Shown: piece by piece, positions 6,009 to 49,403 of the stretch
Numbering within the stretch: position 1 is the stretch's first letter
Layout of the letters: each line of letters starts with the position of its first letter
Source: Saccharothrix sp. NRRL B-16348
Lineage (GTDB): Bacteria > Actinomycetota > Actinomycetes > Mycobacteriales > Pseudonocardiaceae
Length of the DNA: 60,734 bases
Assembly: GCF_001280085.1 (NCBI RefSeq)
Contig: NZ_LGED01000218.1
Location: forward strand, 1 to 60,734
Direction: 5' to 3'
Notes under the pieces: generated by a model
Databases searched by the model: none
The model's input: only the letters and a program-made list of their open reading frames with translations
Told to the model about the DNA's origin: nothing
Position numbers and translations under genes: made by a program

Positions 6009-6620
6009 TCAAACGCCCTGCTGAGCCTCGTCCAACGCCTTGCGCAGCCGGGTGAGGGCCCGGTGCTGGGCCACCCGCACGGCGCCGGGCGTCGAGCCGA
6101 CCACCGCCGCGGTCTCCTCGGCGGACATGCCGAGGACGACGCGCAGCACCAGGATCTCCCGCTGCCGGTCCGGCAGGACGCCGAGCAGCTGACCCATCCG
6201 CTCGGACAGCTCGCCCTGCAACGCCCGCTGCTCGGGCCCCGGTTCGGCGCCCGCGCTGTCCGGCAGCTCCGGCACGGACTCGGCGCGGTTGCGGGCCGAC
6301 GCACGGTGCGCGTCGGCCACCTTGTGCGCCGCGATCCCGTACACGAACGCCATGAACGGCCGGCCCTGCTCGCGGTAGTTGGGCAGCGCCTTGAGCACGG
6401 CGAGGCAGACCTCCTGGGCCACGTCCTCCGCCGACGCCGACGACCGCTGCCCGTGCCCGACCCTGGCCCGGCAGTACTTCACGACCACGGGCCTGATCTC
6501 GGCCAGCAACGCGTCGACCGCCCGCCGCTCACCCCGGACCGCACCTTCGACGTACGCCTCCAGTCCCCCCTCCACACGTGCCGGCGATGAGGACGGGGCG
6601 TCCTCGCACTGCACGGACAT
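6009..6620 (-). CDS. SigD/ShbA-type sigma-70 family factor, copy 1
   Basis: 203 residues starting MSVQCEDAP, chosen because GGGGAGG lies 7 bases before this ATG. Region 2 (about 30-115) contains AEDVAQEVCLAVLKALPNY and GRPFMAFVYGIAAHKVADAHR. Region 4 (about 145-195) contains LPDRQREILVLRVVLGMSAEETA and the helix-turn-helix GSTPGAVRVAQHRALTRLR. There is no region 1 or 3, so it is a small group 4-like factor, closest in my memory to mycobacterial SigD and Streptomyces ShbA. No anti-sigma gene is adjacent. A close paralogue lies just upstream. Confidence 0.9.
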   Translation of the reverse strand: MSVQCEDAPSSSPARVEGGLEAYVEGAVRGERRAVDALLAEIRPVVVKYCRARVGHGQRSSASAEDVAQEVCLAVLKALPNYREQGRPFMAFVYGIAAHKVADAHRASARNRAESVPELPDSAGAEPGPEQRALQGELSERMGQLLGVLPDRQREILVLRVVLGMSAEETAAVVGSTPGAVRVAQHRALTRLRKALDEAQQGV

Positions 6621-6829
6621 CAACGACCTCCCCGCGTTACCACGAAGTACCGGCACAACCGACAGACCAACCGCCACTGCTGCCATCGCGAGCTCCTCGG
6701 CGTCCGCGCGCTGGACGCCCTCGGGGGCACATGCGAACGCGACGCCGGTCGCACACGGGGATGACGCGACTCACACGAAGTTACCCCGAATGGCCGCGTT
6801 TAGACCCCGATCGGACGAGCGGTAGGCCG

Positions 6830-7420
6830 TTATCGGATGCGGTGCGTGACCACGGAGCGCTCGATCTCCTTGCGGAGCCGGGTCAGCGCCCGGTGCTGCG
6901 CGACCCGGACCGCGCCGGGCGTGGCGTCCACGGCGTCGGCGGTCTGATCGGCCGTGAGCCCGACCACCACCCGCAGCACCAGGATCTCCCGCTGCTTGTC
7001 CGGCAGCAGGCGCAGCAGCTCGCCGATCCGCTGCGACAGCTCCACCCGCAACGCCGACTGCTCGGGGCCCACGTGATCGTCGTCCGGCGCGTCGGGCAGC
7101 TCCGGCACCGGCTCGGCCCGGTTGCGCAACGCCGCGCGGTGCGCGTCCGCGACCTTGTGCGCCGCGATCCCGTACACGAACGCCAGGAACGGCCGACCGT
7201 GGTCCTTGTACGTCGGCAACGCCGTCAACAGCGCCAGGCACACTTCCTGCGCCACGTCGTCGGCCGACGTGGACGACCGCTCCTGGCTGCCGACGCGGGC
7301 GCGGCAGTAGCGCACCACCAGCGGGCGGACGGCGGCCAGCAGCGACGCGACCGCCCGGCGGTCGCCGGCGACGGCGGCGCGCACCTCGTCTTCCAAGTCC
7401 TCGGGCGCGGGCGCGGCCAT
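6830..7420 (-). CDS. SigD/ShbA-type sigma-70 family factor, copy 2
   Basis: 196 residues, colinear with the factor at 6009-6620 and sharing long identical stretches (SADDVAQEVCLA, AFVYGIAAHKVADAHR, KQREILVLRVV, PGAVRVAQHRALTRLRK). The two differ mainly in the N-terminus and in the linker between regions 2 and 4. They lie in tandem with a 209-base gap, so each may have its own promoter. ShbA controls the principal sigma factor gene in Streptomyces (established). Whether either copy here does so is inference. Confidence 0.9.
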   Translation of the reverse strand: MAAPAPEDLEDEVRAAVAGDRRAVASLLAAVRPLVVRYCRARVGSQERSSTSADDVAQEVCLALLTALPTYKDHGRPFLAFVYGIAAHKVADAHRAALRNRAEPVPELPDAPDDDHVGPEQSALRVELSQRIGELLRLLPDKQREILVLRVVVGLTADQTADAVDATPGAVRVAQHRALTRLRKEIERSVVTHRIR

Positions 7421-7499
7421 CAGCCGGCCCAGGCTAAGTGCGGGTCTCCCATGGCGGGTCCTCTGCGGGTAGGCGGCGGAGGACTCCGTTCTACCGCAC

Positions 7500-8222
7500 T
7501 CAGGCCGGCTTTCGGCCCAGGACGTGCAACCGGGCGGCCACGTCCCGCAGCGGCGGACGGGTCGACGCGGCCAGTTCCAGCTCCGCCAACGCCTCCGCGG
7601 CGCCCGGGTTGGCCTCCAGCACGGCGCCCGGCACCAGGTCCGACACCACGCCGTGGCCCTGGACCAGCTCCACCTTCAGCCCCGCGGCCACCACCAGCGC
7701 CTCCAGCCCGGCCACGTCGAACCGGCGCAGCAGCGGGTCGCGGGTGCCGACGAGCTGACCGGCCTCGTCGTCCAGCAGCCGCCGCGCGTCGACCAGCCGG
7801 CCGGCGATGGCCCGGTGCAGCACGGCCGCGTACCGGTTCGCCACCAGCAACGACACCGCGCCGCCCGGGGTCGCGGCGGCGGCCAGCGCGGCCAGCGCGG
7901 CACCCACGTCGTCGACGACCTCCAACAGCCCGTGCGCCAGCACCAGGTCCGCCGAGGCGTCCCGGTCCAACGCGTCGGTGTCGCCCTGAACAGCGGTGAT
8001 CCGGTCCAGGACGCCCTCGTCGGCGGCACGGCGGTGCAACGTCGCCAGCGCGTCGGGGCTCGGGTCGACCACGGTCACCGTGCACCCGGCCACGGCCAGC
8101 GGCACGGCCCACACGCCGCTGCCACCGCCGACGTCGAGCACCCGCGGCGGTTCACCGCCCCGGCGGTCCCGCGCGGCGGTCAGCTCGGCGTCGAGCACCC
8201 TGTGTACGGCGTCCGGTCGCAT
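7500..8222 (-). CDS. SAM-dependent class I methyltransferase
   Basis: 240 residues. SAM motif I reads VLDVGGGSGVWAVPLA near residue 30, motif II follows with VVDPSPDALATL, and post-motif acidic and DLVLAHGLLEVV segments fit a methyltransferase-11/25 domain. The rest is alpha-helical with no extra domain. It is divergent from the ParA-like gene (34 bases between starts), a pairing that suggests co-regulation. The substrate is unknown; the fold is certain, the target is not. Confidence 0.88.
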   Translation of the reverse strand: MRPDAVHRVLDAELTAARDRRGGEPPRVLDVGGGSGVWAVPLAVAGCTVTVVDPSPDALATLHRRAADEGVLDRITAVQGDTDALDRDASADLVLAHGLLEVVDDVGAALAALAAAATPGGAVSLLVANRYAAVLHRAIAGRLVDARRLLDDEAGQLVGTRDPLLRRFDVAGLEALVVAAGLKVELVQGHGVVSDLVPGAVLEANPGAAEALAELELAASTRPPLRDVAARLHVLGRKPA

Positions 8223-8243
8223 GGACGTAGAGCGTAAGGGCCG

Positions 8244-8249
8244 TAGGCT
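8244..8249 (+). promoter_or_regulatory. -10 box (TAGGCT) for leaderless parA-like mRNA
   Basis: TAGGCT, then 7 bases, then GTG at 8257. No Shine-Dalgarno sequence is present. Confidence 0.6.
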
Positions 8250-8256
8250 GCACTAC

Positions 8257-9093
8257 GTGCATACGGTGGCGGTGCTCAGCCTCAAGGGTGGCGTTGGGAA
8301 GACGACGGTCGCGCTCGGTCTCGCGTCGGCGGCGCTGCGGCGTGGCGTCCGCACGCTGGTCATCGACCTCGATCCACAGTGCAACGCCACCTCGACGCTG
8401 GAACCGGACGACACCGAGGCCAGCATCTACGACGTCCTGCAGGACCCGAGCCGCGACACGCTGGACAACGCGATCGCGCCCAGCGCGTGGGGCGACGGCG
8501 TCGACGTGCTGGCCGGTTCGGAGGACGCGGAGTCGCTGAACCACCCGGACCCTGGCGAGACGCGGCTCGGCAGGCTGCGTGAGGCGTTGCGGCTGTTGCA
8601 GGACGACGAGGACCCCTACCAGCTGGTGCTGCTGGACTGCCCGCCGTCGCTGGGTCAGCTGACCCGGTCGGCGCTGGTCGCGGCGGACCGGGCGCTGCTG
8701 GTGACGGAGCCGACGATGTTCGCGGTGGCGGGCGTGCAGCGGGCGTTCGAGGCGGTGCAGGCCGAGCGGGAGCACAACGAGCACCTGCAGCCGCTGGGCG
8801 TGGTGGTGAACCGCGTGCGGCCGAGGTCGCACGAGCACCAGTTCCGCATCGACGAGCTGCGCGACATCTTCGGGCCGCTGGTGATGCCGGTGGCGCTGCC
8901 GGACCGGCTCGCGGTGCAGCAGGCGCAGGGCGCGTGCATGCCGATCCACGAGTGGGGCACGCCGGGCGCGCGCGAGGTGGCGCTGGCGTTCAACCTGCTG
9001 CTGGCGCGGGTGCTGCGGATCAGCCGGAGCAGACGCAGGGCCGTGCACCACGACTTCGACGACGAGGAGATCGAGGAAGCGGTGGACGCATGA
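8257..9093 (+). CDS. ParA/MinD-like ATPase
   Basis: 278 residues. The N-terminus MHTVAVLSLKGGVGKTT carries the deviant Walker A motif, DLDPQCNATSTL the A' motif, and LLDCPPSLGQLTRSAL the Walker B region. No ParB gene is adjacent, so this is probably an orphan ParA that positions a protein complex or polar cargo rather than the chromosome (Streptomyces has an orphan ParJ of this kind). The C-terminal tail is acidic (DFDDEEIEEAVDA). The open frame reaches back to 7996 but overlaps the methyltransferase; GTG at 8257 fits the family start. LysE overlaps by 4 bases. Confidence 0.9.
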   Translation: MHTVAVLSLKGGVGKTTVALGLASAALRRGVRTLVIDLDPQCNATSTLEPDDTEASIYDVLQDPSRDTLDNAIAPSAWGDGVDVLAGSEDAESLNHPDPGETRLGRLREALRLLQDDEDPYQLVLLDCPPSLGQLTRSALVAADRALLVTEPTMFAVAGVQRAFEAVQAEREHNEHLQPLGVVVNRVRPRSHEHQFRIDELRDIFGPLVMPVALPDRLAVQQAQGACMPIHEWGTPGAREVALAFNLLLARVLRISRSRRRAVHHDFDDEEIEEAVDA

Positions 9094-47086: not shown

Positions 47087-48028
47087 TCAGGCGTCACCGG
47101 GACCGGGCAGGAGGTCACGCGTCGTGGCCACGTCGCGGTGCATCTGCTCCAGCAGCGACTCGACGCTGTCGAACTTCTCCATGTCCCGCAGCCGGTCCAC
47201 GAAGTCCAGCGCCACCCGCTGGCCGTAGAAGTCCTCGTCCACGTCGAGCACGAACGCCTCCACCCGCCGTTCCCGGCCGGAGAACGTCGGGTTGGTGCCC
47301 ACGCTCACCGCGGCCTTGAGGCGGCGGCCCGAGCCGTGCACGAACCAGCACGCGTACACGCCGTCCGCGGGCACGGCGGCGAACCGCGTGGTCGACAGGT
47401 TCGCCGTGGGGAAGCCGAGTTCCTTGCCGCGGCCGTCGCCGCGCACCACGATGCCCTCCAGCCGGTGCGGCCGGCCGAGCGCCTGCGCCGCGGCGGCCAC
47501 GTCGCCCGCGTCGATGCACGCCCGGATGTAGGTCGACGAGTACGTGACGCCGTCGTCGGTCACCAGATCCGCCCCCTCGGTCACGAAACCGAACCGCTTG
47601 CCCAGCGCGCGCAGCAACTCCACGTTGCCCGCCGCCTTGTGGCCGAACGTGAAGTTCTCCCCCACCACCACGGCCGCCACGTGCAGCCGGTCCACCAGCA
47701 CCTCGTGCGCGAACTCGTCCGCGGGCGTGCGCGCCACCTCGGCGGTGAACGGGATCACGCAGAACACGTCGACGCCCAGGCCCTCGACCAGTTCGGCACG
47801 CCGCCGCAGGCTGGTCAGCTGGGCCGGGTGGCTGCCCGGCCGGACGACTTCGGACGGGTGCGGGTCGAACGTGATCAGGACGCTCGGCACGCCCCTGTCC
47901 GCGGCCAACCCGACCGCGCGGGCGATGAGCGCCTGGTGCCCGCGGTGGACACCGTCGAACACGCCGATGGTCACCACGCAGCGGCCCCAGCCGCCCGGCA
48001 GGTGGTCGAGCCCTCTCCAGCGTTGCAC
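47087..48028 (-). CDS. ribF: Bifunctional riboflavin kinase/FAD synthetase
   Basis: 313 residues. The adenylyltransferase half holds GVFDGVHRGHQALI and the kinase half RGDGRGKELGFPTANL and GVYACWF. It converts riboflavin to FMN and FAD. It is leaderless: GTG 7 bases after TAGGCT. No RFN riboswitch is seen in the 47 bases before the start. Confidence 0.96.
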   Translation of the reverse strand: MQRWRGLDHLPGGWGRCVVTIGVFDGVHRGHQALIARAVGLAADRGVPSVLITFDPHPSEVVRPGSHPAQLTSLRRRAELVEGLGVDVFCVIPFTAEVARTPADEFAHEVLVDRLHVAAVVVGENFTFGHKAAGNVELLRALGKRFGFVTEGADLVTDDGVTYSSTYIRACIDAGDVAAAAQALGRPHRLEGIVVRGDGRGKELGFPTANLSTTRFAAVPADGVYACWFVHGSGRRLKAAVSVGTNPTFSGRERRVEAFVLDVDEDFYGQRVALDFVDRLRDMEKFDSVESLLEQMHRDVATTRDLLPGPGDA

Positions 48029-48075: not shown

Positions 48076-48483
48076 CTAGTCGTGACGGACGTCGCGGCCG
48101 GCCTGGTAGACGGTGCCGCCGTCGCGCGCCACGGCGGTCTGGTTGACGGTGGTCGGCGAGTTGACCGTGACCGAGCCGAGGTTGCCCGCCTGCACCACAC
48201 CACCGGTCACGGTGCCGCTGATGCTGTTGTGCACGTTCGTCACGGGCGCCCGCGGCTCGGGCTCGGCGGCCGGTTCGGCAGCGGTCGGCTCGGCGGCGGC
48301 CGGTCCGGTCTGCGGTGGGGGCGATGACTGCACGCGCAGGGCGATGACCACGCCCAACGCGGTGAGCAGCACGACCGTCACCCACGCCCACGGGTTCGCG
48401 CGGCCGTCGGTGGCGAGGTTGATCGCCACCCCCGTGGCCGACGTCACCACACCGGCCGCGGCCGGCCACACCCATCTCGACAT
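48076..48483 (-). CDS. Membrane protein with C-terminal RHIM/BASS-like amyloid motifs
   Basis: 135 residues from ATG 48483 (7 bases after TACCGT; leaderless). Two membrane helices (about 4-23 and 33-52), a Pro/Ala/Glu spacer (54-80), then a C-terminal part with two short repeats. The first, HNSISGTVTGGVVQAGN (85-101), has the N-x-G-x-V-x-G-x-VVQAG pattern of bacterial amyloid signalling sequences related to RHIM. The second reads GTVYQAGRDV (123-132). Such motifs normally end STAND or effector proteins and pass a signal by templated amyloid formation. No effector or NLR gene is adjacent. Confidence 0.7.
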   Translation of the reverse strand: MSRWVWPAAAGVVTSATGVAINLATDGRANPWAWVTVVLLTALGVVIALRVQSSPPPQTGPAAAEPTAAEPAAEPEPRAPVTNVHNSISGTVTGGVVQAGNLGSVTVNSPTTVNQTAVARDGGTVYQAGRDVRHD

Positions 48484-48490
48484 GCCTTCC

Positions 48491-48496
48491 ACGGTA
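48491..48496 (-). promoter_or_regulatory. -10 box (TACCGT) of the amyloid-motif gene
   Basis: TACCGT on the minus strand, 7 bases, ATG 48483. The box sits just past the truB stop at 48501. Confidence 0.55.
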
Positions 48497-48500
48497 AGCC

Positions 48501-49403
48501 CTATCCGATCGGCGTGAGTACCACCAACGGTTTGGCGATCGGTCCCTCGTCCTTCGCCAGCGCCACCACGTGCCCGTCCGGGCCGAAAACGCCGTACGTG
48601 CCGTCCAGCCCGCCGGCGGCCAGGCGCTGGCCGTGCGAGAGGGCCACCGCCTCGCGCGGCGCGATCTCACGGCGGGGGAAGGCGGTGGACACGGCGGCGT
48701 CCAGGTCCAGGGACAGGCCCGGCGCGCTCTCCAACTGCTCCAGCGTCTTGGCCACGCGCAGGTCGAACGGGCCGACGCGGGTGCGGCGCAGGGCCGCCAG
48801 GTGGCCGCCGACGCCGAGGTCCGCGCCGAGGTCACGGGCCAGCGCGCGCACGTAGGTCCCGGACGAGCACTCCACCATCACGTCCAGCTCGGTGACGCCC
48901 TCGCCCTCGCGGCGGATCGACAGCACGTCGAAGCGGTGCACGGTCACCGGGCGGGCCGGGATCTCCACGGCCTCGCCGGCGCGGACCCGCGCGTAGGCGC
49001 GCTTGCCGTCGATCTTCACCGCGCTCACCGCGCTGGGCACCTGGTCGATCGCGCCGGTCAGCTTCGCCACACCGGCCCGGATCGCGTCCTCGTCCACTTC
49101 GGACGCGTCGGCCGTGGACAGCACCTCGCCCTCGGCGTCGTCGGTCGTGGTGGACGAGCCGAGGCGGATCGTCGACAGGTACGCCTTGCTGTCCAGCGCC
49201 AGGTGGCCGAGCAGCTTGGTGGCCCGCTCGATGCCGAGCACGAGCACGCCGGTCGCCATCGGGTCGAGCGTGCCCGCGTGCCCGACCTTGCGGGTGCCGA
49301 GGATGCGGCGGACCTTCGCCACCACGTCGTGGGAGGTCATGCCGTCGGGCTTGTCGATGACGACGAGGCCGGGCGGGACAGGAGGACGAGAAGATGCGGA
49401 CAC
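48501..49403 (-). CDS. truB: tRNA pseudouridine(55) synthase
   Basis: 300 residues. The catalytic Asp lies in GHAGTLDPMATGVL. KPDGMTSHDVV, SSGTYVRALARDLG and the PUA-like C-terminus are complete. It makes pseudouridine at U55 of tRNA. GTG 49403 lies 8 bases after TAGGAT, whose TAG ends the upstream MFS gene. The open frame reaching 50708 is not coding beyond this start. Confidence 0.96.
   Translation of the reverse strand: MSASSRPPVPPGLVVIDKPDGMTSHDVVAKVRRILGTRKVGHAGTLDPMATGVLVLGIERATKLLGHLALDSKAYLSTIRLGSSTTTDDAEGEVLSTADASEVDEDAIRAGVAKLTGAIDQVPSAVSAVKIDGKRAYARVRAGEAVEIPARPVTVHRFDVLSIRREGEGVTELDVMVECSSGTYVRALARDLGADLGVGGHLAALRRTRVGPFDLRVAKTLEQLESAPGLSLDLDAAVSTAFPRREIAPREAVALSHGQRLAAGGLDGTYGVFGPDGHVVALAKDEGPIAKPLVVLTPIG

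Follow-up and report, generated by a model that had tools for sequence, protein, structure and literature searches.

The core of the RHIM is a short hydrophobic-Gln-x-Gly pattern. RHIM, PP, and the bacterial motif BASS3 are related, according to the excerpts on which we draw (PMC7889193, PMC12261475, PMC7885112). Motifs BASS1 to BASS10 are known from NLR/Bell two-gene clusters (PMC7889193, PMC8086366, PMC9815663, PMC12261475), and the excerpted accounts describe bacterial amyloid NLR signaling as a matter of such clusters, each with one sensor and one effector. Another relevant group is that of the effector-associated domains (EADs): in the sections of the papers used here, matching adaptors occur on core and stand-alone components, and cNMP cyclases are among the attached domains (PMC7159879, PMC8195603).

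Here, we consider a predicted membrane protein of the soil bacterium Saccharothrix sp. NRRL B-16348, which we call the hub, encoded within a window (the whole stretch of DNA analyzed) of 60,734 nucleotides. Like the BASS systems in the excerpted accounts, the arrangement involves a short motif with a Gly- and Gln-containing core, placed on STAND/NLR N-termini and on membrane-type effector C-termini in a filamentous actinobacterium. Unlike the NLR/Bell clusters of those accounts, the hub is unlinked to STAND genes and is fixed between truB and ribF. It carries two different motifs, has a short hairpin instead of a Bell domain, and is accompanied by a cyclase-like partner. Specifically, the N-terminal helical domain of Bell effectors was not found in the AlphaFold2 model of the hub, which shows a hairpin of two helices (about 47 residues) followed by a tail without structure. 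With the RHIM and PP proteins of animal and fungal cell death, the hub shares a hydrophobic-Gln-x-Gly core, an unstructured part, and a proposed role in joining different proteins. Unlike them, it possesses no kinase or HeLo-type domain, and its likeness is one of core pattern, with no profile match. The logic of matching adaptors is common to the hub and the EAD systems, and one remote homolog of the cyclase-like partner (P0179) has an effector-associated domain 2 fused to it (Pfam EAD2, E 2.1e-21). However, EADs, as the excerpts present them, are folded domains, whereas the hub adaptors are short tail motifs, with two adaptor types on one protein. We found no account of such a two-motif membrane protein in the open-licence PubMed Central literature.

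A conserved gene between truB and ribF

The hub gene and its surroundings comprise the following features:

48076..48483, minus strand: gene for the 135-residue, two-motif predicted membrane protein; start codon (ATG) at 48483 and stop codon at 48078-48076; 64 homologs at E ≤ 1
48331..48471, minus strand: predicted two-helix membrane hairpin, residues 5-51 (AlphaFold2 helices, conservation in alignment A1, dN/dS 0.41)
48241..48330, minus strand: variable Pro/Ala/Glu linker, residues 52-81 (mean identity 0.28 over residues 53-81 in 17 orthologs)
48172..48234, minus strand: motif 1, VHNSISGTVTGGVVQAGNLGS, residues 84-104 (profile A2 against the own genome, reversed control, ORF positions)
48088..48147, minus strand: motif 2, VNQTAVARDGGTVYQAGRDV, residues 113-132 (profile A3 against the own genome and the genus, reversed control; also on the cyclase-like protein in 20/20 genomes)
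48491..48496, minus strand: TACCGT box, its end 7 nt from the ATG; probably the -10 element of a promoter for a leaderless transcript (TAC(C/G)GT in 24/24 distinct upstream sequences; function putative)
48501..49364, minus strand: truB, start approximate, directly upstream (in 13/13 close named loci)
47087..47977, minus strand: ribF, start approximate, directly downstream (in 12/13 close named loci; the 13th contig ends first)

An earlier note, made from the letters of this DNA, had described a gene for two membrane helices and a Pro/Ala/Glu spacer lying beside ribF and truB. That description holds. The gene is present on the minus strand, and the tail peptides quoted in the note lie at residues 85-101 and 122-131. 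The truB stop codon is 17 nt from the ATG, with ribF next on the same strand. AlphaFold2 places helices at residues 5-26 and 31-51 (block pLDDT 73-87), ahead of the variable linker, and gives the tail no structure; over the whole model, mean pLDDT is 66.4 and pTM 0.31. The hairpin's insertion in the membrane and its topology are predicted. Homologs number at least 93 at E ≤ 0.01 when an alignment is used (among the best 7994 candidates scored). In an alignment of 31 of the 64 homologs found at E ≤ 1, the hairpin is conserved, the linker is variable, and both tail motifs are conserved, with G94, Q98, and R130 invariant. No family in Pfam, NCBIfam, or PADLOC passes for the hub protein, and PDB sequence searches gave nothing usable.

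Gene order is equally stable. Genes for MATE, MFS, and truB precede the hub gene on the same strand in all 13 close named loci (Saccharothrix, Umezawaea), and ribF, xre, rpsO, and pnp follow it in 12 of them, the contig of the 13th ending first. The profile of alignment A1 finds the hub protein in 22 of 25 genomes of the genus (E ≤ 5.3e-23), and the fetched flanks place truB upstream in all 22, at a distance of about 0.56 kb in G110, 0.88 kb in G139, and less in the others. Three genomes (G021, G059, G129) have truB and ribF without a recognizable hub copy; in the slots read in G023, G043, G076, and G099, ribF comes straight after truB. At the Saccharothrix luteola locus (L065, about 6411-8268), 1.86 kb separate the hub gene from ribF and contain an ORF that we read as transposase-like. 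A second ORF with the same hairpin (L060, G000:C257:26196-26318, plus strand; profile E 7.9e-9) has no in-frame tail motif and may be a truncated copy or a hairpin-only relative. Remote relatives (P0087-P0095) keep the hairpin (NLATEW..NPWAW) and have other tails, for example NSTIHGPNFQVGRDVSI, or none such.

The earlier note had also given the gene a leaderless promoter of its own. A hexamer TAC(C/G)GT ends 5-10 nt before the ATG in all 24 distinct upstream sequences that remained from 38 loci once repeats and pattern misses were dropped, and the window background is 0.058 such hexamers per kb. Judged by these upstream sequences, a leaderless start at 48483 gains support; on the other side, a generic sigma-70 scan upstream of the hub gene found no promoter. 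The truB stop and the ATG are separated by 13 to 101 nt at 12 of the 13 named loci (at the remaining one, the match starts within the gene). Because TAC(C/G)GT is retained in four named loci with truB gaps of 48-101 nt, the idea that hub expression simply depends on truB read-through is weakened. Read-through may contribute to hub transcription.

Two tail motifs and their carriers

The note had treated the tail motifs as one kind, which the profiles contradict: scored against each other's profile they reach 4.8 and -2.9 bits, versus 52.9 and 68.0 bits with their own, and on these scores they are two different motifs. Its label of RHIM/BASS-like fared better for the layout, which is of the NLR-associated kind, than for strict family. 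A published BASS3 peptide (n = 1; excerpted from PMC8086366) scores 3.9 and -1.7 bits with the motif-1 and motif-2 profiles, and neither Pfam, NCBIfam, nor PADLOC gives a match. After these low scores for one peptide we dropped the plain BASS3 label, and, at the level of sequence, strict BASS3/RHIM membership is not supported.

Both motifs recur elsewhere in the genome. The motif-1 profile, built from 22 tails, gives 30 matches at E ≤ 10, of which 29 lie outside the hub gene (best outside E 2.4e-10). A P-loop follows motif 1 by 65-133 residues in 16 of the 29, and a possible start codon stands ≤16 residues before the motif in 15 of those 16, although such codons are frequent in this DNA. Pfam identifies a 17th motif-1 STAND protein (L028), and at E ≤ 0.005 STAND proteins make up nine of 11 matches. 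The remaining 12 of the 29 comprise a Bell-like C-terminus (L021, 40.7 bits), other ORFs, and probable chance matches at high E. The motif-2 profile, from 20 tails, gives 10 matches, nine outside the hub gene (best E 7.6e-7): four P-loop ORFs (L050, L052, L054, L055), the C-terminus of a cyclase-like protein (L051), a Bell-like C-terminus (L053), and three others. "Bell-like" is our own label, based on size, position, and a hydrophobic helix. Profiles of the reversed motifs produced five matches each in the same genome, the best at E 0.788 (motif 1) and 0.118 (motif 2); thus, motif sharing exceeds chance. Among 20 STAND candidates scanned (16 with motif 1, four with motif 2; L039 was left out), 15 pass a curated cut-off, as NB-ARC (12), NACHT (2), or NPHP3_N (1), while L020, L034, and L055 have sub-threshold NTPase matches and L031 and L036 have none.

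A common motif at STAND/NLR N-termini and effector-like C-termini, the general mark of NLR-associated amyloid motifs, is therefore present. The motif-bearing STAND genes of this genome are unlinked to the hub gene. No STAND gene occurs among the ORFs around the hub gene within the window, and the adjacency or clustering of NLR and effector genes known from NLR-associated amyloid systems was not found at the hub locus; likewise, no P-loop ORF accompanies the Bell-like gene within a 10 kb stretch. The cyclase-like protein does not have motif 2 to itself, since a Bell-like C-terminus and the N-termini of four STAND proteins also carry it. The note had supposed that the hub sits in the membrane and receives a signal that arises elsewhere, and had named, as evidence against itself, a genome with no matching tail on any other protein. 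Matching motifs do occur on other proteins, so that outcome did not arise, and the core of the idea is supported by the many unlinked STAND proteins whose N-termini bear related motifs.

Three weak motif-1 matches (L040, L045, L047; E 0.33, 2.1, 3.6) sit near ORF starts, with hydrophobic stretches after them; possibly, these are membrane proteins with motif 1 at the opposite end.

Across the genus, motif 1 is found in all 25 genomes at E ≤ 0.01. The hub-less genomes G021, G059, and G129 have 2, 2, and 4 matches, and the other genus genomes 2 to 14, the hub's own included where it passes. Proteins with motif 1 are thus independent of the hub.

The two motifs also evolve differently. We started from 25 slot proteins, left out that of G133 (24), extracted 19 by pattern, and retained 17 orthologs after dropping two with a degenerate motif 2. 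Pooled dN/dS in these is 0.27 for motif 2, 0.41 for the hairpin, 0.62 for motif 1, 0.74 for the linker, and 0.85 for the spacer. In six close genomes, the values are 0.17 (motif 2), 0.24 (hairpin), 1.33 (motif 1), 0.43 (linker), and 0.36 (spacer). The numbers are small, and the contrast between regions, not the absolute values, is the result. By these codon comparisons, motif 2 is under strong purifying selection and motif 1 evolves faster, which is the pattern expected if one set of partners is fixed and the other changes. The value of 1.33 for motif 1 in the six close genomes could instead reflect weak constraint.

A cyclase-like protein that ends in motif 2

The earlier note had called the hub an orphan, but an unlinked protein, class-III-cyclase-like and with motif 2 at its end, co-occurs with it. 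Specifically, motif 2 is present in 20 of the 25 genus genomes at E ≤ 0.01, and in all 20 a second carrier is the ortholog of this one protein, 62-91% identical to the own copy. The orthologs are 265-299 residues long as called and have a tail like SVNQNAVATGGSTVIQAGRDA plus a further conserved end. The structure model is confident over residues 1-195 (block pLDDT 82-98) and poor in the tail. In the PDB, 148 chains match at E ≤ 0.001, and the best 50 of the 148 are all adenylyl or guanylyl cyclases (best E 1.7e-8), from which a class III nucleotide cyclase fold is predicted; Pfam and PADLOC give no match above cut-off for the protein.

Class III cyclases have a signature of two metal-binding Asp residues and a transition-state Asn and Arg. 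Among 50 aligned rows, D12 is conserved in 47 (the other three are gaps), D56 in 49, and R124 in 49, and Val occupies the likely Asn position in 46. We take D12 and D56 to be the metal-binding residues and the mostly-Val position to be that of the transition-state Asn. With the likely transition-state Asn replaced by Val in 46 of 50 rows, cyclase activity is doubtful. PMC7159879 describes cNMP cyclase domains as frequent in the conflict systems of bacteria, several of them being inactive.

In the own genome, the hub and cyclase-like genes are on different contigs (C217 and C1). Upstream of the cyclase-like genes, GAAAGG is conserved; of the 22 starts listed, 20 have it or GAGAGG, and the two from Umezawaea have GGAGGT. 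These regions differ from that of the hub gene, and a promoter common to both was therefore dropped. Most of the 22 listed starts (L177-L196, L227, L232) have a box like CCACAGTGACTCTGC about 40-70 nt ahead. The own cyclase-like gene (L189 2214-3089, on G000:C1) lies just upstream of a STAND gene with N-terminal motif 1. A fixed NLR-cyclase operon was considered and dropped: on the downstream side, which was the side searched, a motif-1 STAND ORF directly follows in three of 20 genomes (G000, G088, G136).

The co-occurrence comparison took 80 of 140 genomes. The 196-residue cyclase-like core, searched without its tail, matches in 54 of the 80 at 1e-5. At ≥69% identity it is found in 23, namely the 20 plus G022, G060, and G089, with the next best at 50%, and these 23 coincide exactly with the genomes in which the slot protein bears motif 2. 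In G124 and G130, the slot protein and its hairpin are retained, motif 2 is degenerate, and the cyclase-like ortholog is absent. A further 52 genomes show weaker hub-profile matches in 13 cases (E 4.1e-18 to 9.0e-4) and none in 39. Three g43 genomes have a non-syntenic hub homolog (41-45% identity) without a cyclase-like ortholog, two of them with a divergent second motif. On a truB tree of 31 rows, the 23-genome group needs two changes. G124 and G130 form one clade nested inside the group (99/98), and G021, G059, and G129 form another (99/94). As read from this tree, the co-occurrence of motif 2 and the cyclase-like protein rests on two evolutionary events, and the informative one took place in the ancestor of G124 and G130, in which motif 2 decayed and the cyclase-like gene was lost jointly.

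How the hub may act

Our proposal is that the hub is a two-motif receiver, anchored in the membrane and acting in trans, which links NLR-like sensors to a single dedicated partner, the cyclase-like protein, through amyloid-type templating, and we give it slightly less than an even chance. The notion is that an active STAND sensor would template motif 1 of the hub by an amyloid-type contact. The hub tails, which presumably face the cytosol, would assemble and, through motif 2, bring the cyclase-like partner to the membrane and perhaps activate it. Motif 1 would thereby face a changing set of sensors and motif 2 a fixed partner, and the outcome may be defense or cell death. We regard this proposal as the best explanation of the ORF and its conservation, the motif sharing with its controls, the gene position, the co-occurrence, and the rate contrast, taken with a predicted membrane hairpin and a predicted cyclase fold. 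Counted against it are the presence of motif 2 on other proteins, a co-occurrence of two changes, the g43 exceptions, the poor BASS3 score, the lack of a shared promoter, and the doubtful cyclase activity; the persistence of motif-1 proteins in hub-less genomes reduces our confidence a little. A bacterial necrosome-like hub, in which one membrane protein, passed on vertically, uses two different amyloid motifs to connect a whole repertoire of scattered NLR-like sensors in trans to one cyclase that makes a second messenger, is a reading that we consider doubtful.

The main rival to the receiver is a hub that is itself the executor. As a Bell-like membrane effector, its hairpin would cluster and disturb the membrane after a STAND protein has templated the tail, and the cyclase-like protein would be a parallel, hub-independent effector using motif 2. 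Both motifs do occur on STAND N-termini, a membrane-active effector with a C-terminal motif is the arrangement described in the excerpted account (PMC7889193), and Allokutzneria and Actinoalloteichus have remote hairpin homologs that bear one tail motif only (L077, L078). However, such a role leaves the decay of motif 2 in the cyclase-losing clade unexplained, and the hairpin, at about 47 residues, includes no Bell-like domain. Moreover, no P-loop ORF of more than 250 residues was seen near the remote hairpins (14 loci, six with 6 kb flanks and eight with 1.5 kb) or at one partner locus. We judge an executor role unlikely.

Less probable still is that the tail motifs are short beta-forming or simple oligomerization tags, which would cluster proteins at the membrane without templated amyloid signaling. 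The failure of every curated amyloid or RHIM family to pass, the low bit scores of the published BASS3 peptide, and the structureless tail in the AlphaFold2 model all fit mere tags, but the placement on STAND N-termini and effector-like C-termini is that described for amyloid signaling motifs in the parts of PMC7889193 and PMC12261475 used here.

Finally, we consider it very unlikely that motif 2 and the cyclase-like gene co-occur by a coincidence of phylogeny between functionally unrelated proteins, as the two changes on the truB tree and the g43 homologs might suggest, given that the genes are on separate contigs and that in G124 and G130 the part that decayed is the motif held in common with the lost gene while the hairpin stays.

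If the receiver proposal is true, a conserved, unlinked, two-motif protein would be a case of many-to-one wiring in which a membrane hub is shared, and NLR-like sensors would be tied to an output that is cyclase-like. Two features make the idea directly testable: the fixed position behind truB and a natural case in which motif 2 and the cyclase-like gene were lost together.
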